Part shown: in pieces, positions 263 through 58,403 of the stretch
How the letters are laid out: each line of letters opens with the position of its first letter
Position numbering within the stretch: position 1 is the first letter of the stretch
Source of the DNA: Haloarcula salina
GTDB lineage: Archaea; Halobacteriota; Halobacteria; Halobacteriales; Haloarculaceae
NCBI RefSeq assembly: GCF_010119195.1
Contig: NZ_WRXL01000001.1
Coordinates: 868,001 to 932,000, forward strand
Reading direction: 5' to 3'
DNA length: 64,000 bases
Notes under the pieces: model-generated
What the model saw: the letters and a program-made list of their open reading frames with translations, nothing else
What the model was told of the DNA's origin: nothing
Databases searched by the model: none
Program-made: the position numbers and the translations under genes

Positions 263-373
263 GACGGACTGCCGCCCCCACACCCGAGACCGTCGAGCGA
301 GCGGCCGCGAACCGCCGACGAACCGCCGGACGTGACGGGCGTGATGTTTTTTCCCTGACACGCGGAACACGAA

Positions 374-383
374 AGACTATACA
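374..383 (+). promoter_or_regulatory. TATA element of the ABC exporter operon
   Basis: GACTATACAC lies about 27 bases before the ATG at 407, the spacing expected for a haloarchaeal leaderless transcript. Seen by eye only. Confidence 0.5.
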
Positions 384-406
384 CGCGGCCGGCACAAACG
401 CGCCGT

Positions 407-48781: not shown

Positions 48782-50050
48782 TCAGCGATGCGGGTCAGCC
48801 ACACCGCTCGTCGCCGCCAGCCGGTGCAAGCGATAGGCCCCGCGTTCGCGTCCGTCGTCGTGGTAGATCACCGGCTCCTCGACGGCGACCGCGCAGTCGC
48901 CGTCGACCGCCGCCGCCGTCACGACGCCGTCCGTCTCCAGCGTCCCGACCGCGCCGTCGGCGATGTCGAACAGACGGAGCGCGTGGGCGTCGGCGTCGCG
49001 GTCGCGGAAGTGCTGCGCCCCGGGGACGGCCAGCAGGTCGCCGGCCGCGCCGAGGCCGCTGGCGAATCCGCCGACTGGGGCCGACCAGCGTCGCTCGCCG
49101 TCGAGCGAGACGCCGACAGCGGTGTGTTCGTTCGGGTGGCGGGCGTCGGTCTGGCGGCCCTCCTCGGGGTAGGTGTTGCCGGTGACGAACACCGCGCCCC
49201 CGTCGGTCGCGCGGACGTGGTTCGGGTAGGCGTAGACGGTGTCGCCGGCCACGTCGGTCGGCGTCGCGAGCGGGACGCGCCAGCGTTCGCTCCCGCTCTC
49301 GTTCAGCCGGTAGCCGCAGTAATCGCCGTGGCTCGACAGGACCGCTCCCTCGTCGAGCAGCGCCACGTCGCCGACTCGCCGCTGGCCGTCGGTCCCGGGG
49401 TCCCACATCCAGCGGGGCGAGCCGTCGGCGGCGTCGAGGACGACCAACCCGTGCTGGTGGTCGCCGGGACAGCGGTTGTAGGCGACGGCGACGCGGTCGT
49501 TCCGGACCGACAGTGCGATCGGTGAGGCGTCGGTCGGGTAGGTCCACGCGACCGACCCGTCCGGGCGGAAGGCGTAGACCGCGCTCTCGAAGTGCCGAAC
49601 GTCGTCGCCGTCGGCGTCCGTTCGGCGCTCGTACCGGCGCGCCGCGGCGTACAGCCGGTCGCCGTCGGCGGCGAGGGCGGCGACGAACGGCAGGAGAAAG
49701 CGCGTCTTCTTCTGGGCCGCGCCGAGGTCGGTTCGGGTGTCGTAGCTCCAGCGGACGCCGCCGTCGGCGTCGTGACAGCGGACCTGCCCGCGGGCGCTCC
49801 GCTCGCCGACGGCGACGCCGCCGTCGAACGGGACGGCCGCGACGACGCTCGGGTCGCCCTCGGTCTCGTGACGCCACCGGCGGGTCGGCGGGCCGTCGCT
49901 CGCGATGTCGAAGGCCAGCACGTCCCCGTCGGCGGTCCCGACGACGGCCAGCCCGTCGGCCAGCGCGACCGCCGAACGGCGCCCCTGGTGGCGCGAGCGG
50001 GCCGGGGGAATATCGCCGAGCGACGCGGCCTGTGCGCGCCGGCTACTCAT
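48782..50050 (-). CDS. PQQ-type beta-propeller protein in the cob operon
   Basis: A 422-residue protein of PQQ/WD-like beta-propeller repeats, e.g. VVGTADGDVLAFDIASDG, VYAFRPDGSVAWTYPTD, VVLDAADGSPRWMWDPG and LFDIADGAVGTLETDG. There is no signal peptide, so it appears cytoplasmic. It overlaps DUF3209 by 8 bases and is the last gene of the long cbi operon. The function is unknown; a scaffold for corrin intermediates or a metal sensor are possibilities without direct evidence. Confidence 0.8.
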   Translation of the reverse strand: MSSRRAQAASLGDIPPARSRHQGRRSAVALADGLAVVGTADGDVLAFDIASDGPPTRRWRHETEGDPSVVAAVPFDGGVAVGERSARGQVRCHDADGGVRWSYDTRTDLGAAQKKTRFLLPFVAALAADGDRLYAAARRYERRTDADGDDVRHFESAVYAFRPDGSVAWTYPTDASPIALSVRNDRVAVAYNRCPGDHQHGLVVLDAADGSPRWMWDPGTDGQRRVGDVALLDEGAVLSSHGDYCGYRLNESGSERWRVPLATPTDVAGDTVYAYPNHVRATDGGAVFVTGNTYPEEGRQTDARHPNEHTAVGVSLDGERRWSAPVGGFASGLGAAGDLLAVPGAQHFRDRDADAHALRLFDIADGAVGTLETDGVVTAAAVDGDCAVAVEEPVIYHDDGRERGAYRLHRLAATSGVADPHR

Positions 50051-50414
50051 CGACTGGGAACGCCTCGTGGAGTACGTCGTGGGCCTCGCCGAGGCCGGCG
50101 AGCACGTCCTCGCCCTGCGCGGTGAGGCGGTGGACCGCGCGCTCGGCGTCGCGGACCGCGACGAGCCGGCCCCGGAGGTAGTCGTACTCGGGGTCGTCCT
50201 CGTCGGCGGCGGCGATCTCCTCTTCCAGATCGACGAGCGCGGCGTCGAGGTGGCGCTCGATGCCCGCGAGCGTCTCCGCGTTCGCGAGCGCCTCGATCGG
50301 GCCGTCGAGATGCCCCTCCAGCTCCTGTTCCGCGTGCTGGCGCGCGTGGTCGTCTTCGGTGCCGAGAACGGTCATGAGGCCGAGTCGGAGGGCCTCGATT
50401 TCGTAGCAGCTCAT
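50043..50414 (-). CDS. DUF3209 family protein
   Basis: A 123-residue acidic, helical protein starting MSCYEIEALRLGLMTVLG, matching the DUF3209 family found in cobalamin clusters of halophiles and some bacteria. A helical bundle with a Cys-Tyr-Glu start and a conserved DDPEYDYLRGR segment. Function unknown; because it travels with cbi genes it is a candidate for a missing corrin step or for cobalt handling. It starts 28 bases after the CbiX/2Fe-2S gene. Confidence 0.88.
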   Translation of the reverse strand: MSCYEIEALRLGLMTVLGTEDDHARQHAEQELEGHLDGPIEALANAETLAGIERHLDAALVDLEEEIAAADEDDPEYDYLRGRLVAVRDAERAVHRLTAQGEDVLAGLGEAHDVLHEAFPVDE

Positions 50415-50441: not shown

Positions 50442-51665
50442 TCACAGCGTCTGGTCGACGAGTTCGCTGACGATGCGGTCGCGGTCGAGGTGCGAGGAGA
50501 CGATCTCCTCTGCGTCGCGCTCCCCGACGCCGCCGTACCAGACCCCGTCGGGGTAGACGGCGACCATCGGCCCCTCGCCGCAGCGGCCGAGACACGACGA
50601 GCGCGTGATGCGGGCGTCGCACTGGTCGCTGTCGCGCGCGGCCTGGCGGAGGCGTTCGAGGACCGCGGGCGAGCCCTCGCCCGCGCAGGTCTGGTTCGTG
50701 CAGACCGCGACGTGCTTCTCGGGCGCGTCGTGGACGTGGGGGTCGTCGGCCACGTCCTCGCGGTCGGCGTGTTCGGCCTGATGGGTCAGCGCCCGGAGCA
50801 TCGCCCGCGCGCCGCCCTGGTCTTCCTCGTAGCCGTCGAGTTCGACCTTGTACTTGCAGGTGTCACAGGACATCTCGACGCTCCCCGTGCGGGCCTCCTG
50901 CCAGCGGTCGCCGAGCACGTCGAGCAGGCGTGGATCGGTCCCCAGCGGCTCGCCGGGGGCGGCGTCGACGTACGGGTACTCCTCGTCGAACTCGCGCGCG
51001 CCGTCCTTGATGCGGCCGGTCAGCACGCCGTCGCCGAGCATGTAGGGCACGACGACGACGGCGTCGGGTCGGCTCTTCGCCAGGTCGTGCAGCGTCTCGG
51101 AGAGCAGCGGCTCGGTGACGCCGATGAACGACGCCTCGACCCGCGAGAAGTCGCGGCCCTCGTAGAGCAGGCGGGCGAGCTTGTGTACGTCGGCGTTGGC
51201 GTCCGGGTCGCTGGAGCCCCGGGCACAGACCACGACGGCCACGTCGTCGCGTTCGCGGTCGACGCCCAGGTCGGCCTCCACGCTCGCCGCCCGGTCGTCG
51301 AGCAGGTCGAGGATCGCGGGGTGGACGCCCAGGTGCGCGCCGTTGTTGATGGTCAGTTCGGGGTGGGCCTCGCGGGCCTGCGTGACCGCCAGCGGCACGT
51401 CGTTCTTGACGTGGCTCGCGGCGAACAGCGAGAGGTGGACGACCGTGACCTGTGAGACTGTCGCGGCCAGCCCCGAGACGGCCTCGTCGATGGCCGGCTC
51501 GGCCAGTTCGAGGAACGCCGCGTCGACCGGGATGCCGAGCCGCCCTTCGAGGTCGGCGGCCAGCTCTCGGACCTGCTCGTTGGACCTCTCGCGCCGGGAG
51601 CCGTGGCCGACGAGCAGGACCGCCTCGTCGTCCAGCGCGTCGGCGGCGACGGTCGCTTCGCTCAT
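50442..51665 (-). CDS. cbiX: CbiX chelatase fused to a [2Fe-2S] ferredoxin domain
   Basis: A 407-residue fusion. Residues 15-270 are CbiX with two halves: AVLLVGHGSRRERSNEQVRE (His of the active site) and HLSLFAASHVKNDVPLAV (second His); then VAVVVCARGSSDPDANADV. An intermediate Cys pair is MSCDTCKYKVE (about 264-269). The C-terminal part (about 310-400) is a thioredoxin-like [2Fe-2S] ferredoxin with C-x4-C in VCTNQTCAGE and C-x3-C in SCLGRCGEGP. Chelatases of the CbiX type with Fe-S clusters are known. It overlaps the LAGLIDADG-like gene by 4 bases. Confidence 0.93.
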   Translation of the reverse strand: MSEATVAADALDDEAVLLVGHGSRRERSNEQVRELAADLEGRLGIPVDAAFLELAEPAIDEAVSGLAATVSQVTVVHLSLFAASHVKNDVPLAVTQAREAHPELTINNGAHLGVHPAILDLLDDRAASVEADLGVDRERDDVAVVVCARGSSDPDANADVHKLARLLYEGRDFSRVEASFIGVTEPLLSETLHDLAKSRPDAVVVVPYMLGDGVLTGRIKDGAREFDEEYPYVDAAPGEPLGTDPRLLDVLGDRWQEARTGSVEMSCDTCKYKVELDGYEEDQGGARAMLRALTHQAEHADREDVADDPHVHDAPEKHVAVCTNQTCAGEGSPAVLERLRQAARDSDQCDARITRSSCLGRCGEGPMVAVYPDGVWYGGVGERDAEEIVSSHLDRDRIVSELVDQTL

Positions 51666-52321
51666 CGGACTCGCTCGACGCTCTTTCGGAGCTTGCGCCG
51701 CCGGCTCGGCGCGAACAGCCCCGTCGCGTCGCTGCCCTCGTACAGCCAGTCGCCCAGCGCCGGAGCGGCCTCGTCGGCCACCCCGAACCAGTGGCCCGAC
51801 GACGCCTCGGCGAGGTCGTCGGACGGCGCGTCGACCGGGCAGCGGTCGAGCAGCGTCTGGATCGTCCGGAGCAGGCGCTCGTCTTCGTGGACGAACGAGA
51901 TGCCCACGGCGCCGGCGTCGGACTTGAAACAGACCGTGCCACAGCCCTCCAGCAGGCCCCGGAGGAGCTGGCGGTCGTAGTCGGCGAAGGCGTCGAAGCG
52001 GTAGCCGCCGGCCTCCCCGTCGAAGGGCAGGCCCAGCGCCGCGCTGGCGCGGTCGGCCAGCCCGCCGATGACCTGGACGGTGAACTCCTCCTCGCGGCGG
52101 GTGATCGAGGTGTCGTGGGCGTAGGCCCGCTCGACGATGCGGCGGTCGGCGCGCTCCGCGCCGGCGATGGACGCGAGGCGGCGGGCGGCGGTCTCGTCGC
52201 TCGTCCGCACGGTGACACAGCCGTCTTCGCAGTCGCCGTCGGCGGCGACCCGCCCCCAGAAGTACGCCGTCTCCGGGTGGGCTGCGAGCATGTCCGACGG
52301 CGCGCCGGTCTCGACGCTCAC
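51662..52321 (-). CDS. LAGLIDADG-like protein of the cobalamin operon
   Basis: A 219-residue protein found in haloarchaeal cobalamin operons. It shows two degenerate LAGLIDADG motifs: YFWGRVAADG (residues 20-29) and LLRGLLEGCG (119-128), each followed by a beta-rich stretch (CVTVRTSDE, then VCFKSDAGAVGISFV), as in single-chain homing endonucleases and WhiA. In the second motif the usual acidic residue before Gly is Cys127. No DNA-binding HTH extension is apparent. It overlaps its neighbours by 4 bases. A nuclease role is unlikely; regulation or a structural role in corrin synthesis are possibilities. Confidence 0.72.
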   Translation of the reverse strand: MSVETGAPSDMLAAHPETAYFWGRVAADGDCEDGCVTVRTSDETAARRLASIAGAERADRRIVERAYAHDTSITRREEEFTVQVIGGLADRASAALGLPFDGEAGGYRFDAFADYDRQLLRGLLEGCGTVCFKSDAGAVGISFVHEDERLLRTIQTLLDRCPVDAPSDDLAEASSGHWFGVADEAAPALGDWLYEGSDATGLFAPSRRRKLRKSVERVR

Positions 52322-52590
52322 GGCTGGACCTCCCCGGCGTCGGTCGCCGGCGACCCGTCGGCCGGCACGTCGTGCTCGACTGACTCGACGGTGATTGCGT
52401 CCAGCGGACAGGCGGCGGCGGCCTGCTCGGCGTCGTCCCGGCGGTCGTCCTCGAAGGTGGCCTCGATCGCCGTCCGGTCGTCCGTCTCGACGGCTGCCAG
52501 CCCCTCGCTATCCTCGACGAAGCGGTCGTCGCGGACGAGACAGGCGAACACGCCGTCGCAGGCCTCGCGGTCGATGGTGATTCGGTACAT
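52318..52590 (-). CDS. [3Fe-4S]-type ferredoxin
   Basis: A 90-residue ferredoxin. Cys11 and Cys17 (CDGVFACLV) and Cys61 before Pro (AAACPLDAITVE) are the only cysteines, which fits a single [3Fe-4S] cluster as in bacterial P450-type ferredoxins. It ends in an acidic tail. It sits between cbiH2 (2 bases upstream) and the LAGLIDADG-like gene (4-base overlap), so it probably supplies electrons to a corrin-ring redox step, such as the ring contraction by CbiH or the cobalt reduction. Confidence 0.85.
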   Translation of the reverse strand: MYRITIDREACDGVFACLVRDDRFVEDSEGLAAVETDDRTAIEATFEDDRRDDAEQAAAACPLDAITVESVEHDVPADGSPATDAGEVQP

Positions 52591-52592
52591 GG

Positions 52593-53687
52593 TCAGTAGT
52601 CGTACTTGGTCTCGTAGCCCCGCGGCGTCACCATCCGGTCGTCCCAGACGTACGTGTCCTCGTTGCCCACGAGCAGCGTGGTGGTCATGTCCACGAGGTC
52701 CGTCTCGCCGAGTTCGGGCAGGTCCGCCAGTTCGACGATTTCGACCTGTTCGTCCTCCCGGCCGGCCGCGTGGACCACGCCGACCGGCGTCTCCGGGTCG
52801 CGGTGCTCCAGTAAGATCTCGCAGCACTTCTCGTAGTTGTCCCGGCGCTTGCGGCTCCAGGGGTTGTAGATCGTGATGGTGAACCCCTCCTTGGCGGCGG
52901 CGTGGAGCCGCGACTCGATGGTCGGCATGTCCGTGAGGTGGTCCGACAGCGAGATGGAGACGGTGTCGTTGACCAGCGGCGCGCCGACGCGGGCCGCACA
53001 GGACTGGGCCGCCGGAACGCCCGGGACCACGTCGAAGTCGAGCATCGTCGCCGTCGCGCCCTTGGACTCGACGATCTCCAGGGCGAGGCCGGCAAGCGCG
53101 TAGACGTTCGGGTCGCCGCTGCCGATGATGGCCACGTCGTTGCCCGCCAGCGCGCGGTCGATGGCCTCCTCCGTCCGCGAGACCTCGCCGCACATCGGCG
53201 TGTCGTAGATGTCCTCGGCTCCCTCGGTGATCTCGTCGGGCAGCAGGTCGACGTAGGTCGTGTAGCCGACGATGTGCTCGGCGTCCAGCAGGGCAGCGCG
53301 GGCGCGAGCGGTCATCCCCTCGGGCTGGCCGGGACCGAGGCCGACCGCGATGAGTCGGCCGGGATCGGCGTCGAAGTCGTCGACGGTCGCGCCGACTTCC
53401 TCCTCGTCCGAGGAATCTGACGAGGCCGCGCCGCAGGAACTGCTGGTGGACGAAGACGACGAGGACGACGAAGCGCCACACTCCGAGGTGGTGTCGTCGG
53501 CCTCCGTCGACGGACTCGCCTCGCCGGCCGAGGCGCTCGATTCCGGCCCGCTCTCGGCTCCGCTCGCACCACATTTCGACCCGGTGTTTGCCTCCGTATC
53601 GGTCTCTCCGGCCGATGCCTGTGCCTCGCTCGCGCCGCACTTCGATTCCGTCTCTGTACTCCCGTCGGTGGTGTTGTCAGTGCTCAT
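52593..53687 (-). CDS. cbiH: Cobalt-precorrin-3 C17-methyltransferase CbiH/CobJ with Cys-rich N-terminal tail
   Basis: A 364-residue TP methylase. The catalytic part (from about residue 110) begins LIAVGLGPGQPEGMT and shows GSGDPNVYALAG, VVPGVPAAQSCAA, SLSDHLTDMPTIESRL and NPWSRKRRDNYEKC. It contracts the ring and methylates C17. Its first 105 residues are a Ser/Glu/Ala-rich low-complexity chain with four cysteines, each followed by Gly-Ala: Cys17, Cys39, Cys70 and Cys85 (KCGAS, KCGAS, ECGAS and SCGAA). Such tails are absent from ordinary CbiH. It lies directly after a second CbiH gene (2-base gap) and before the ferredoxin. Confidence 0.92.
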   Translation of the reverse strand: MSTDNTTDGSTETESKCGASEAQASAGETDTEANTGSKCGASGAESGPESSASAGEASPSTEADDTTSECGASSSSSSSSTSSSCGAASSDSSDEEEVGATVDDFDADPGRLIAVGLGPGQPEGMTARARAALLDAEHIVGYTTYVDLLPDEITEGAEDIYDTPMCGEVSRTEEAIDRALAGNDVAIIGSGDPNVYALAGLALEIVESKGATATMLDFDVVPGVPAAQSCAARVGAPLVNDTVSISLSDHLTDMPTIESRLHAAAKEGFTITIYNPWSRKRRDNYEKCCEILLEHRDPETPVGVVHAAGREDEQVEIVELADLPELGETDLVDMTTTLLVGNEDTYVWDDRMVTPRGYETKYDY

Positions 53688-53689
53688 TG

Positions 53690-54613
53690 TCAGAAATCGT
53701 CGACGTCACGCCCGCCGCGCGGGGTGACGAGGAACTCCCGGTAGTCGTTGCGCCAGACGCGCGTCTCGTGGGTGCCGACGACGATGGACGATCCCATGCC
53801 GCCGACCTCCTCGTCGTGGTCGGGCAGGTCGCCCAGCGTCGTGATGGTCTCCGTCTCGTCGTCCAGGTTCCGGCCGGCCGTCCCGCGGCCGGCGTCGTTG
53901 ACGATGGCGGCGGGCACGCCGTCGGCCCGCTCCTCGCGGAGGACGGCGACGGCCCGCTCGTAGTCGCGCCAGCAGTTGTAGAGGACGACGACGAAGCCCG
54001 AGATGGCCGCGGCGCGAAGCTTCTCCTCGATCTCGTCCCAGCCGCGCCACTTGTCCGACAGCGATATCGTACAGAAGTCGTTGGACAGCGGCGCGCCGAG
54101 GTTCGCCGCGCCCGACAGCGCCGCGGTCACGCCGGGGACGATCTCGATGGGCACGTCGTCGGCGTCGTCGGCGTCGGCCATCGTGAACAGCAGGTCGGAC
54201 TTCCCGTAGACGTTCGGATCGCCGCCGGAGACGTGGGCCACGTCCTCGCCGTCCCGGACCCGCGCGAACGCCTCGCGCGCGAGTTCGACCTGTTTGCCCA
54301 TCGACGAGCGGATCAAAGTCTGCGTGTGGCCGTCGGTTCGTTCGAGGACGGTTCCCTCCTCGTCGGCCACCTCGCTGTCGTCGGTTCGGCCCGACAGCGC
54401 GGCGGACTCGGGCGGGAGCGTCCCGTCCTTGCGCAGGAACTCCTGGTAGAGGTTCGAGGCGACGACGCAGTCGGCCGTCTGGATGACGTCCTTCGCGCGC
54501 TGAGTCATGTCGTGGGGGAGGCCCGGCCCGATGCCGACGACGTACAGCGTGCCGTAGTCGTCGGGGGTCGCGGTCGCCGGGGCCGACGCGGCCACGTCCT
54601 CGGTCCCGCTCAT
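53690..54613 (-). CDS. cbiH2: Second CbiH/CobJ-type methyltransferase
   Basis: A 307-residue TP methylase paralogue. It starts after an acidic/Ala leader of about 20 residues with YVVGIGPGLPHDMTQRAKDV; then VSGGDPNVYGKSDLL, VPGVTAALSGAANLG, SLSDKWRGWDEIEEKL and YNCWRDYERAVAVL. It shares the SLSD and NVYG motifs with CbiH at 52593-53687, but is diverged. Two CbiH-type genes side by side are usual in haloarchaea. Perhaps one contracts the ring and the other has a different methylation or an auxiliary role. It overlaps cbiG by 4 bases. Start ATG 54613. Confidence 0.9.
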   Translation of the reverse strand: MSGTEDVAASAPATATPDDYGTLYVVGIGPGLPHDMTQRAKDVIQTADCVVASNLYQEFLRKDGTLPPESAALSGRTDDSEVADEEGTVLERTDGHTQTLIRSSMGKQVELAREAFARVRDGEDVAHVSGGDPNVYGKSDLLFTMADADDADDVPIEIVPGVTAALSGAANLGAPLSNDFCTISLSDKWRGWDEIEEKLRAAAISGFVVVLYNCWRDYERAVAVLREERADGVPAAIVNDAGRGTAGRNLDDETETITTLGDLPDHDEEVGGMGSSIVVGTHETRVWRNDYREFLVTPRGGRDVDDF

Positions 54614-55581
54614 TTGCCGATCGCCACCGTCACGGCCTCGTCGTAGCGGGTCTTCTCGGCCAGCAGGTCGTGCTCGCGGCCGGCGGCGATGGCCGACGCC
54701 TCGGCGATGCCCGGCCAGCCGATGAGTTCCTTCGAGCGCGAGGGGGTCGGTCCCTCGAAGCGCTCCAGCGTCTCCTTCTCGAAGGCGATCACGCCCAGCC
54801 CCCACGCCTCGGCGGCGGCGAGCATCCCCTCCTCGTCGGCCTTCCGCGTGCCGGTGGCGACGAACTCCACGTCGGAGCGGTCGCGGCCGGCCGCGTCGAG
54901 CGCGCGCTCCCACGCGGCGTGGAACTGGTCCACGTCCGCGCCGGCGACGCTGCCACAGCCCAGCACGACGCCGTCGTCGCTGTTGCGCTTGAGGACGGTC
55001 ACGTCGTCGCCGACCACCACCGCCTTCGGGCCGTCGAGGCGCTCGACGGGGCCGAGTTCGTCGTCCAGCACGGCGAGGTTGGTGGCGACCGTCGAGTCGC
55101 CGTTGACGACGTGGGCGTCGAGGGCCTTCGCCCGCTTCTCGACGCCCTGCTTGTCGGCCGCCTCGCTGGCGGTCGTCATCGCCGGGACCGCGCCCATCGA
55201 CGCCAGGTCGTCGGCGACCTGGTTCGCGCCGTGGTGGCCGCCGGTGATGGGGATGGCCCACGTCAGTTCCTCGTCGACCACGCAGATGGCGGGGTCGTCC
55301 CACTTGTCGTCGAGCAGATGGGCGGTCTTGCGCATCGCGATGCCGCTGGCCATCAGGCCGACGAAGCAGTCGTACTCGCCCCAGTGCTCGTCGAACACCG
55401 CGCCGTGGTATTCGAGGACGTCGATGGACTCGTAGCGGTCGCCGATGCCGTCGACGATCTCCTCGGCGGTGTCCATCTTCCGCTCGAAGGCGACGATGGC
55501 GATGTCCTCTGCCACCTCGCCGTCGGAGTCGGGCGCTTTGCAACTGTTCGAACTCGAATCGCCGTCGCTGTCTGTGCTCAT
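54610..55581 (-). CDS. cbiG: Cobalt-precorrin-5A hydrolase CbiG
   Basis: A 323-residue enzyme that opens the delta-lactone of cobalt-precorrin-5A, releasing acetaldehyde. The N-terminal domain has HWGEYDCFVGLMASGIAMRK, VVDEELTWAIPITGGHHGANQVADD and the C-terminal domain has LGCGSVAGADVDQF and FVATGTRKADEEGMLAAAEA. The first 25 residues are a Ser/Asp-rich tail with Cys14 (SNSCKAPDSD), resembling the Cys tail of CbiH. The upstream neighbour cbiF is 426 bases away, unlike the tight spacing elsewhere in the operon. Confidence 0.93.
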   Translation of the reverse strand: MSTDSDGDSSSNSCKAPDSDGEVAEDIAIVAFERKMDTAEEIVDGIGDRYESIDVLEYHGAVFDEHWGEYDCFVGLMASGIAMRKTAHLLDDKWDDPAICVVDEELTWAIPITGGHHGANQVADDLASMGAVPAMTTASEAADKQGVEKRAKALDAHVVNGDSTVATNLAVLDDELGPVERLDGPKAVVVGDDVTVLKRNSDDGVVLGCGSVAGADVDQFHAAWERALDAAGRDRSDVEFVATGTRKADEEGMLAAAEAWGLGVIAFEKETLERFEGPTPSRSKELIGWPGIAEASAIAAGREHDLLAEKTRYDEAVTVAIGK

Positions 55582-55870
55582 GAATGTCCTCCGGCCGGTG
55601 TTCGGTCACACGCGGCTGCCGGCCAGTCAGCCGCTCGGCTACTGCCAGCCATTCCACTCCCAGCTGCTGTCGGCGCGCGCCGGCGCGCTCGGATGGCGCG
55701 CCAGAAATCGTGCGAGGGATGAGCGACCGACAGTCGAAGGGAGCGAATCGGATGGGGAGGCGTGTGGTCTGCTGTTTGGTGCGGTGCTGTGGGGTGGACT
55801 GAAAGGGGCCGGGCGCTCCGGGAAGACGACTGACGCAAGCACGCAAGCGAAGCGAGCGCGCGCAGCGAGG

Positions 55871-55899
55871 TCCTCGACCGGAGCGACCGGGGGCTTTCT
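55871..55899. repeat. 29-base direct repeat, unit 1
   Basis: Starts TCCTCGACCGGAGCGACCGG and ends GGGCTTTCT. The identical unit is at 55931-55959 with a 60-base period. Confidence 0.9.
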
Positions 55900-55930
55900 A
55901 CCTGTACTCGGCACCTCCCGCTACTCCTAG

Positions 55931-55959
55931 TCCTCGACCGGAGCGACCGGGGGCTTTCT
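55931..55959. repeat. 29-base direct repeat, unit 2
   Basis: Identical to 55871-55899. The spacer of 31 bases between them is unrelated. The 29 bases on the minus strand end GGTCGCTCCGGTCGAGGA, which has a short self-complementary part and could act in termination. Confidence 0.9.
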
Positions 55960-56007
55960 GGCGGTTCGCGGTCGCGTCCGCAGTGACCACGGCGCGTCCG
56001 GACCATC

Positions 56008-56922
56008 CTAGTCGTCGGCCTCCTGTGAGTCCGCGTCGCTCCCCCGGTTCGCCCAGTCGCCGTACAGGTACGAACGCTCGTAGTCGTCCCCGCCCACCGC
56101 GTCGCCGATGACGACCATGGCTGAGGCGCGATAGCCGGCGTCTTCGAGTTTCTCGCCGATGGTCGCAATCGTTCCTTCGATGACGTCCTCGTCGGGCCAG
56201 GACGCGTGGTACACGGCCGCCACGGGCGTGTCGGGGTCGTGCCCGTCGGCCAGCAGGCGGTCCATCGTCTCGCTCACGGCGTGGGTCCCCAGATAGATAC
56301 AGGTCGTCACGTCGCCCATGCCGACGAACTCGGAGATGTGGTCCTCCTCGGCGTCGAGCGTCTTGCCCTGCGGGCGGGTGAAGGCGACGTGGTTGGCGAC
56401 CTCGTTGAGGGTCAACTGCGTGCGCATCGTCGCGCTGGCGGCGAACGCCGAGGTGACGCCGGGGACGATGTAGGTGGGGACGCCCTCGTGTTCGAGCGCG
56501 TCCATCTGCTCCAGGGCGGCCCCGTAGATGGCCGGGTCGCCGCTGTGGAGGCGAACCACGGTGTCGCCGGCCTCGTAGGCGTCGCGCATCAGCGGGATCA
56601 GCTCCTCCAGGTCCTTGCCGATGGACGACACCGTCTCGGCGTCGGCGCAGTACTCGTCCAGCAGTTCGCTGTTGACCAGCGAACCGGCGTGGACCACGAG
56701 GTCGGCGTCGGCGAGCAGGTCGCGGCCGGCGACGGTCAGCAGGCGGGGGTTCCCGGGGCCGGCCCCGACGAAGGGGATGCCCGCCTGCTCGTCACCGGCG
56801 CTGTGCTCGTAGACGCGGTCGTCCCGGTTCCCGGCGACGGAGTCGATGGCGTCCTGCGGGTCCGTCTCGTCCGCGGGCGGGGCGTCGGGCGTCTCGCCGT
56901 TGGCAGCGTCGTCGCCGGTCAT
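56008..56922 (-). CDS. cbiF: Cobalt-precorrin-4 C11-methyltransferase CbiF
   Basis: A 304-residue TP methylase with an acidic N-terminal extension of about 48 residues. The core begins IPFVGAGPGNPRLLTVAGRD, then LHSGDPAIYGAALEQMDAL, VPGVTSAFAASATMR, AFTRPQGKTLDAEEDHISEF and YLGTHAVSETMD. It methylates C11 of cobalt-precorrin-4. It overlaps cbiL by 4 bases. ATG 56922 (MTGDDAANGE) is the start. Confidence 0.93.
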   Translation of the reverse strand: MTGDDAANGETPDAPPADETDPQDAIDSVAGNRDDRVYEHSAGDEQAGIPFVGAGPGNPRLLTVAGRDLLADADLVVHAGSLVNSELLDEYCADAETVSSIGKDLEELIPLMRDAYEAGDTVVRLHSGDPAIYGAALEQMDALEHEGVPTYIVPGVTSAFAASATMRTQLTLNEVANHVAFTRPQGKTLDAEEDHISEFVGMGDVTTCIYLGTHAVSETMDRLLADGHDPDTPVAAVYHASWPDEDVIEGTIATIGEKLEDAGYRASAMVVIGDAVGGDDYERSYLYGDWANRGSDADSQEADD

Positions 56923-57713
56923 CGTCGCACCTCGTCGCCGCAGAGGGCGGCCTCGGAGCGTTCCTGGCGTTCGAGGTCGCCGATGGACTGCGCACCGCCG
57001 TCGGTAACGACCCCGCTCTCGTCGGCCGCTTCGAGGAACGCGTCGGTGGCCTGCTCGACGCGGGCGTCGGGTCGCTCGGCGTAGGCCAGCGTGTAGTAGT
57101 CTCGCTCGTCGATGTCGGTCGGGTCGTCGGTGACGACCGTCTCGCCCTGCTCCATGAACAGCCGGCGGCCGTACACCACGTCGTAGCCGGCCTCGGTCAG
57201 GCCCTCGTGAGTGGCCGGCGCGTCGGTCACCTTGAACAGAATCATTCGGTCGGGACCGGTCGGCGACGCGCCCTGATCGGCCTCCCGCAGGGCGAGGCTG
57301 GAGCCGGCGGTGACCTCGACGCCCAGCGCGGTGGCGAACGCCGTCACCGCGCTGACGCCGGGGACGACTTCGAGGTCGACCGCGGGGTGAAACGCCGCGA
57401 GCGTCCGCCGGAGGTGACCGAACGTCGAGTAGACGTTCGGATCGCCCAGCGTGACGAAGGCGGCGTCGCCGTCGCGGGCGGTCGGCGCGATCTCCGCGGC
57501 GGCCTCCTTCCACGCCGCGCGCAGTTTCTCCTCGTCGCGCGTCATCGGGAAGTCGAGGTCGCCGATCCGCGATTCCGGGACGTGCTCGGTCGCGACCGAG
57601 CGGGAGAGTCGACCCGGCGAGTACACCACGTCGGCCGACTCCAGCGCGCGCTTGCCACGGACCGTCACGAGGTCGGGCTGACCGGGACCGAGGCCGACGC
57701 CGTAGAGCGTCAT
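56919..57713 (-). CDS. cbiL: Cobalt-factor II C20-methyltransferase CbiL
   Basis: A 264-residue TP methylase. LYGVGLGPGQPDLVTVRGKRAL begins the fold; FVTLGDPNVYSTFGHLRRTL and VVPGVSAVTAFATALG follow. It methylates C20 of cobalt-factor II, the first methylation after chelation. The C terminus ends LCGDEVRR with Cys258. It overlaps cbiT and cbiF by 4 bases each. Confidence 0.93.
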   Translation of the reverse strand: MTLYGVGLGPGQPDLVTVRGKRALESADVVYSPGRLSRSVATEHVPESRIGDLDFPMTRDEEKLRAAWKEAAAEIAPTARDGDAAFVTLGDPNVYSTFGHLRRTLAAFHPAVDLEVVPGVSAVTAFATALGVEVTAGSSLALREADQGASPTGPDRMILFKVTDAPATHEGLTEAGYDVVYGRRLFMEQGETVVTDDPTDIDERDYYTLAYAERPDARVEQATDAFLEAADESGVVTDGGAQSIGDLERQERSEAALCGDEVRR

Positions 57714-58348
57714 CGCTCGCCTCCGTCGACCGCGTTGCCGTCGGCCGTCTCTGCGGTACTCGGACTGCCGCCGCTCGTTCCGCCACAGCCGTCAGCGGCC
57801 ACGTCCGCGCTCGCGCTGCCGACGAGCATGTAGACGGGATTCTCGGAGTCGAAGCTGGTCGCGCCGGCGAGCTCGTAGCCGTGACTCACCTGGAACTGGA
57901 CGACCTCTTCCAAGATGTCTCGCTCGCGGAAGGCCTCGGTCGCCGCGCCGGCGACCTCCAACCGCGAGACGTTCATGACGATTCGGTCGACGCCGGTCTC
58001 GACGGCGTGGTCGAGGACGGCCTCGTAGTTGCGCGAGCCGCCGAGAAAGAGCGCGTCGGCGTCGTCGGGCAGGCCCTCGGGGGCCTCGGCCTCGCGCAGT
58101 TCGACGGCGGCGCTGGTGTCGTTCGCCGCGAGGTTCTCGCGGGTCACGTCGAGTCGACCGGCCTTGCGTTCGAGCGCAGTGACCCGCCCGGCCCGGCGCG
58201 CCGCCTCGATGGTGACGGCCCCGGTACAGGAGCCGACCTCGACGAAGTGGTCGGACTCGCTGAGGGCGAGTTTGCTTGCGAGGACGGCCCGGACCTCCGG
58301 CTTGGTCGGGCCGGCCTTCGCGTCGTGTGGGAGCGAGACGCGTGACAT
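57710..58348 (-). CDS. cbiT: Cobalt-precorrin-6B C15-methyltransferase/decarboxylase CbiT
   Basis: A 212-residue Rossmann SAM methyltransferase (VEVGSCTGAVTIEAAR is motif I), with FLGGSRNYEAVLDHA and IVMNVSRLE. CbiT methylates C15 and removes the acetate carboxyl at C12; its CbiE partner gene is at 39331-40092. After about residue 180 a Ser/Gly/Asp-rich tail holds Cys188 (DGCGGTSGG). I start at ATG 58348 (MSRVSLPHDAK); the in-frame ATG at 58459 would add a non-haloarchaeal leader. First gene of the operon; the promoter with a palindrome lies upstream. Confidence 0.93.
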   Translation of the reverse strand: MSRVSLPHDAKAGPTKPEVRAVLASKLALSESDHFVEVGSCTGAVTIEAARRAGRVTALERKAGRLDVTRENLAANDTSAAVELREAEAPEGLPDDADALFLGGSRNYEAVLDHAVETGVDRIVMNVSRLEVAGAATEAFRERDILEEVVQFQVSHGYELAGATSFDSENPVYMLVGSASADVAADGCGGTSGGSPSTAETADGNAVDGGER

Positions 58349-58380
58349 CACGCTATACAACTGCGGTAGCGCGTAAAACA

Positions 58381-58403
58381 ATTTTGGTTGTATTAACCAA
58401 AAT
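58381..58403. promoter_or_regulatory. Perfect palindrome at the head of the cbiT operon
   Basis: ATTTTGGTT and AACCAAAAT flank GTATT (9-5-9, all pairs match). It lies 33-55 bases upstream of the cbiT ATG, directly next to a TATA-like TTGTTTTA (minus strand, about 58371-58378) placed 23-30 bases before the ATG. A dimeric regulator here would control the entire corrin operon. Confidence 0.75.

Follow-up and report, generated by a model that had tools for sequence, protein, structure and literature searches.

A domesticated LAGLIDADG-fold protein encoded within the corrin-ring operon of haloarchaea

To our knowledge, domesticated LAGLIDADG proteins are few (WhiA and HO). WhiA (DUF199) consists of a nuclease-dead LAGLIDADG domain that has been kept by its host and a C-terminal helix–turn–helix (HTH), and in Mycoplasma gallisepticum its endonuclease domain binds an auxiliary GTTGT motif (PMC11701221). 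Archaeal relatives such as I-Tsp061I, I-DmoI and PI-PfuI are single-chain endonucleases with a fold of two halves. We found no literature that joins LAGLIDADG proteins, cobalamin and haloarchaea.

Cobalamin is made aerobically in Halobacterium through the cobalt-early 'anaerobic' pathway (PMC3403918), and a second, TrmB-dependent activator of the cob/cbi genes has been inferred in the same organism (PMC3794607). In Haloferax volcanii, the gene HVO_B0055 lies between a ferredoxin gene (HVO_B0056) and cbiX (HVO_B0054). PMC8305020 lists HVO_B0055 as an orphan gene of the cobalamin cluster with unassigned function, and the cluster's four orphans have been proposed to fill the CbiD and CbiJ gaps of haloarchaea.

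The apparent orthologue of HVO_B0055 in Haloarcula salina, equated with it by operon position (gene order alone), encodes a real, order-specific, domesticated archaeal LAGLIDADG protein, and no record was found that states its fold. The protein resembles WhiA in being a host-kept, nuclease-dead LAGLIDADG domain, but it lacks the HTH, is confined to Halobacteriales, is encoded mid-operon among biosynthetic genes and has, at the second catalytic position, a cysteine and not simply a lost acid. With the archaeal endonucleases it has the two-half fold in common (Z 15-16), and the sequence likeness to haloarchaeal intein endonucleases (the rpoA2 intein) is still recognisable; in contrast to these enzymes, it is without the catalytic acids, lies outside any intron or intein and is kept vertically in an operon.

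The gene and its operon

The window, the whole stretch of 64,000 nucleotides analysed, contains the operon on its minus strand (table 1). Upstream of the LAGLIDADG gene and on the same strand are cbiT, cbiL, cbiF, cbiG, cbiH1, cbiH2 and a ferredoxin-like gene; downstream are cbiX, whose product has a [2Fe-2S] tail, a DUF3209 gene and a PQQ-type propeller gene. The first-pass annotation had described a product of 219 residues with two LAGLIDADG-like motifs, a cysteine at position 127 and 4-base overlaps with both neighbours, all of which hold; it did not state the strand. The nearest named relatives belong to Haloarcula (90% identity), and homologues carry the PGAP label 'cobalamin biosynthesis protein'. 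Most neighbouring genes overlap by about 4 bases, and the 426 bases between cbiG and cbiF (55582-56007) contain no clear gene. In G015, G008, G011 and other Haloarcula genomes, the distance from the gene to cbiG is about 1.1 kb above that in the window, the additional length lying between cbiH1 and cbiG.

Table 1. Features of the operon and its promoter, in window coordinates.
Feature	Position	Strand	Remarks
PQQ-like beta-propeller gene	48782..50050	minus	counted in the module
DUF3209 gene	50043..50414	minus	fold of TTHB059 (2ehw)
cbiX	50442..51665	minus	4-base overlap with LAGLIDADG gene (51662-51665)
Thioredoxin-like [2Fe-2S] domain	residues about 315-390		C-terminal in cbiX product
LAGLIDADG-fold gene	51662..52321	minus	GTG start, 219 aa
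Cys131 codon	51929..51931	minus	invariant (69/69)
LAGLIDADG motif 2, LLRGLLEGCG	51938..51967	minus	residues 119-128; Cys127 at catalytic-acid position
LAGLIDADG motif 1, YFWGRVAADG	52235..52264	minus	residues 20-29; Asp28 not conserved
Ferredoxin-like gene (Fer4_15)	52318..52590	minus	4-base overlap with LAGLIDADG gene (52318-52321)
cbiH2	52593..53687	minus	tetrapyrrole methylase
cbiH1	53690..54613	minus	tetrapyrrole methylase
cbiG	54610..55581	minus
cbiF	56008..56922	minus	name from gene order and the available text of PMC8305020
cbiL	56919..57713	minus	name from gene order and the available text of PMC8305020
cbiT	57710..58348	minus	first gene of operon; conserved ATG at 58348
GTTGT element	58357..58361	minus	near start codon
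Core of order-wide cbiT promoter, CAACCAAAATTGTTTTA	58374..58390	minus	palindrome CAAN6TTG; present whether or not the gene is

Across the 63 loci read, the order cbiH1-cbiH2-ferredoxin-gene-cbiX-DUF3209 holds in 61-63: the gene is followed by cbiX in every locus and by DUF3209 in 61, and is preceded by the ferredoxin gene in 62, and most of the missing neighbours are due to contig ends, together with one true absence. An in-frame start codon that allows a 4-base overlap is present at 46 of the 62 junctions with the ferredoxin gene and at 47 of the 63 with cbiX; translational coupling of the gene with ferredoxin and cbiX is thus frequent. In these 63 loci the gene is free-standing and holds the same operon position, with no intron, intein or other mobile setting, which agrees with the earlier view of a long-standing resident and not a recent insertion. 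The divergent genome G034 retains the gene (33-38% identity) unlinked from the operon, and G358 (and locus L064) keeps it although both DUF3209 and the CbiX tail are missing. In G084 (L146) the cbi operon looks decayed, with no cbiT match, a weak cbiG and a LAGLIDADG gene that is stretched or broken.

Fold, ancestry and active site

An AlphaFold2 model built from an alignment of 46 homologues (mean pLDDT 89.8, pTM 0.88) consists of two halves of alpha-beta-beta-alpha-beta-beta-alpha topology, with a LAGLIDADG helix at the start of each (residues 16-28 and 109-127). The top structure matches in both Foldseek and VIA-align 2 are all LAGLIDADG proteins, namely I-Tsp061I (Z 16.2, rmsd 2.9, 178 residues), I-DmoI (Z 15.8), PI-PfuI (15.2) and WhiA (14.6), and the fold proposed at first pass is supported by these values. 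The 219 residues are accounted for by the LAGLIDADG halves and one C-terminal helix; no HTH is present, whether in the model or as a Pfam HTH family, and no methyltransferase or nucleotide-binding fold. The C-terminal helix is basic (the final 16 residues of the protein include 8 K/R and a single D/E), while residues 1-203 hold 18 K/R and 37 D/E, an acidity shared with the neighbouring proteins and usual for haloarchaea.

Sequence comparison bears on the same relationship. Pfam LAGLIDADG_3 matches the window protein at E=0.0025 and 18.5 bits, under the curated cut-off of 22.5, and matches 31 of the 46 homologues at E<=0.1 (best 3.4e-5); NCBIfam and PHROGs gave no match. A relaxed LAGLIDADG pattern matches at residues 21 and 120, a double match with a frequency of 5e-5 in 20,000 shuffles, although the pattern was written with the motifs known and its significance is overstated. 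Searches of PDB sequences, with the single protein or a profile as query, returned no meaningful match, so the relationship to PDB proteins is visible by fold only. Common ancestry with LAGLIDADG endonucleases is nevertheless supported, because the endonuclease part of the rpoA2 intein in haloarchaeon G034 aligns in sequence (30% identity, BLASTP 38 bits, E=2e-8 as a single comparison). This intein is carried by the gene for RNA polymerase subunit A'' (L121, 1486-4095).

Each LAGLIDADG helix of a homing endonuclease is closed by a metal-binding acidic residue, and these residues are not kept here. Among 69 non-redundant homologues (<90% identity), position 127, at the end of the second helix, is a cysteine in 67 and an alanine in the other two, whereas position 28, which closes the first, is occupied by Asp in 42 and by Ser, Ala, Asn or Gly in the remaining 27. 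The first pass had proposed checking homologues for a retained Asp28 alongside a non-acidic position 127; the second part stood without exception and the first did not. Cys131, His69, Arg121, Glu125, Arg207 and Lys210 are invariant, as are Gly140, Ser142 and Tyr194, and His145 is kept in 62 of the 69. Judged from strand order, Cys127 and His145 may be placed like the catalytic acid and the neighbouring active-site residue of I-CreI-type enzymes.

The protein is under purifying selection: comparison of Haloarcula orthologues gives a dN much lower than dS, with dN/dS of about 0.03-0.3. This low ratio and the many invariant residues indicate a working protein, and 'relic', the term used at first pass, is misleading. 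The constraint combined with the lost acids argues against a homing endonuclease, and the protein is almost certainly not a nuclease.

The cbiT promoter and regulation

That the protein has been domesticated is supported, and the two roles put forward at first pass, a regulator of the operon or a new component of corrin synthesis, were the right pair of alternatives. A DNA-binding regulator is the main rival reading, though the less likely one: the protein would resemble WhiA without its HTH and act near the cbiT start site or at another promoter, where its cysteines would make it responsive to cobalt, to redox state or to a corrinoid. The fold and the WhiA match point in this direction, as do the basic C-terminal helix with its invariant Arg207 and Lys210 and the strong conservation of the cbiT promoter. 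In an alignment of cbiT upstream regions from about 90 genomes, every region that could be anchored contains the palindrome CAAN6TTG running into ATTGTTTTA. Exact CAACCAAAATTGTTTTA occurs once in the genome of the window, and a weaker second copy of the element is often found 20 bases upstream; in the window the conserved promoter lies at 58374-58402 (minus strand).

The same core element is, however, present in all seven CbiG genomes without the gene, and the promoters of G135, which lacks the gene, and its congener G249, which has it, are nearly identical. An element kept with or without the gene is therefore a core promoter or the element of another regulator, and its conservation regardless of the gene weakens the idea of an operon regulator. 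One promoter feature does track the gene: the GTTGT near the start codon is found in 20 of 45 non-redundant promoters with the gene and in none of seven without it. Yet more than half of the promoters of gene-bearing genomes are without GTTGT, and the seven gene-less promoters come mostly from one clade. The mid-operon position of the gene, coupled to those of enzymes, and the lack of an HTH in the model also count against regulation. A palindrome at 58381-58403, proposed at first pass as the binding target, was rejected, as it is not conserved beyond the window and one close relative, where the arms are shorter (7 bases). In Halorussus, a MarR-type gene lies immediately upstream of cbiT (L239, 643-1452, minus strand). 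The regulatory reading stays alive because of two published leads, the binding of GTTGT by WhiA (PMC11701221) and the TrmB-dependent activator (PMC3794607), but the evidence leans towards an accessory or component of the pathway.

Genomes without the gene and a proposed role

Co-occurrence with the corrin-ring pathway is near-complete. Among 392 Halobacteriales genomes, 193 encode the protein and 199 encode CbiG: both are present in 192, the protein alone in one, CbiG alone in seven and neither in 192 (raw counts, uncorrected for phylogeny). The sole genome with the protein and no CbiG is G134, where the match lies at a contig edge. Five weak matches (E 4e-6 to 4e-4; G287, G214, G244, G345 and G147) were presumed to be inteins or endonucleases of another kind and were left out of the count, none of them reaching E<=1 with the profile save for G345 (0.38); intein identity was read directly for rpoA2 of G034 only. 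A search of 393 genomes sampled from the phylum found no relative outside Halobacteriales, and none was found in the viral contigs searched.

The seven genomes with CbiG alone (G033, G035, G063, G135, G203, G281 and G327) bear on whether the protein is an enzyme for a published gap, either CbiD (C1-methylation/deacylation) or CbiJ (reduction). PMC8305020 counts it, along with three further orphans, among the obvious candidates, and CbiD and CbiJ are missing from all 51 genomes tested (these seven and 44 others), while control genomes do match. A sensitive profile search also found the protein absent from the seven, the lone match in G327 (E 0.5) being at chance level. The protein is thus not present wherever the pathway runs without CbiD and CbiJ, and genomes that have none of the three carry out the steps regardless, unless by way of a different substitute; the protein is therefore not a general replacement for either enzyme. 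Ferredoxin and DUF3209 are also gone from the operon in six of the seven, so that the gaps would be filled by the shared core (e.g. CbiH1) or elsewhere. Together with the lack of a methyltransferase or nucleotide-binding fold, this makes an enzyme for either gap unlikely. That the gene encodes a free-standing homing endonuclease which is still active, or was so until recently, is more improbable still; the fold and the likeness to the rpoA2 intein might speak for this reading, but it is refuted in the main by the loss of the motif 2 acid in 69 of 69 and of the motif 1 acid in 27 of 69 homologues, by a locus that is fixed in all loci read but G034 and lost along with corrin genes, and by the lack of any relative in the viral contigs searched.

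Six of the seven genomes (all but G135) have a bare operon, T-L-F-G-H1-H2-X, without the ferredoxin gene, the LAGLIDADG gene, DUF3209 or the propeller, and with a CbiX that lacks the [2Fe-2S] tail. The loci L147, L148, L149, L150, L151 and L154 show this minimal form, also without CbiD and CbiJ. DUF3209 is missing genome-wide from the six at the family cut-off (G281 has one match below it), and is absent from 19 of 19 genomes without CbiG. The haem-copper oxidase (COX1) is absent from four of the six, the only such genomes among the 51, and is present in G281 and G327; the COX1-less genomes are probably those that the literature describes as strictly anaerobic. The six bare operons group together in the tree as a single clade (support 0.992), so that their association with an anaerobic lifestyle reflects about one evolutionary event. 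Because this tree mixes partial sequences, and some loci without cbiG gave paralogues, seen as one long branch (G225, G155, G217 and G249), only the clade of bare operons was used from it.

The seventh genome, G135, has COX1 and the remainder of the gene set, and the LAGLIDADG gene is therefore dispensable even there. Two tandem cbiX genes, only one of which encodes the [2Fe-2S] tail, occupy the place of the missing gene (L153, 12434-15304).

The protein is thus dispensable for the basic pathway and probably helps to run it in oxygen-respiring members of the order. Our main reading, to which we assign a probability of about one-half, is that it is a nuclease-dead, domesticated protein which assists an 'aerobic' corrin module and is coupled there to ferredoxin and CbiX. 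A LAGLIDADG-type endonuclease would have entered the corrin-ring operon of haloarchaea ahead of the split into the main Halobacteriales families, would then have lost its catalytic acids, and would now serve as an accessory of the cobalt-early (cbi) pathway. The invariant set of Cys127, Cys131 and His69 may have replaced the old active site, as sequence and predicted secondary structure suggest, and the protein may be a physical partner of ferredoxin and CbiX, perhaps serving them as a scaffold or as a corrin- or metal-binding subunit. More speculatively, it may work off nucleic acid altogether, as a corrin-, cobalt- or redox-handling subunit that, with ferredoxin and the [2Fe-2S] cobalt chelatase, sustains an anaerobic-type B12 pathway in oxygen.

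The genes absent from the bare operon form a set rich in redox parts (ferredoxin and the [2Fe-2S] tail). The full set comprises ferredoxin, the LAGLIDADG-fold protein, CbiX with its [2Fe-2S] tail, DUF3209 and the PQQ propeller, and may allow an oxygen-sensitive pathway to run in cells that respire oxygen. Leptospira is an obligate aerobe. Its cob operon also holds CbiX-[2Fe-2S] and DUF3209 together, the two adjoining as they do in the window, with a CbiX tail that is 46% identical to that of the window over 102 aa; an annotated CbiD is present and no LAGLIDADG protein was seen in that operon. DUF3209, whose only structure is TTHB059 of Thermus, with a fold in common with the window protein of that family, is hence a candidate marker of the cobalt-early pathway in aerobes, and the LAGLIDADG-fold protein, made together with ferredoxin and CbiX, would be the haloarchaeal addition to the set.

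These results describe an archaeal, order-specific LAGLIDADG lineage tied to B12 synthesis, whose members lack an HTH and conserve a cysteine in a dead active site. The minimal operons are the smallest haloarchaeal set in which to seek the missing C1-methylation and reduction steps, and the gene set makes the aerobic use of the cobalt-early pathway by haloarchaea testable.
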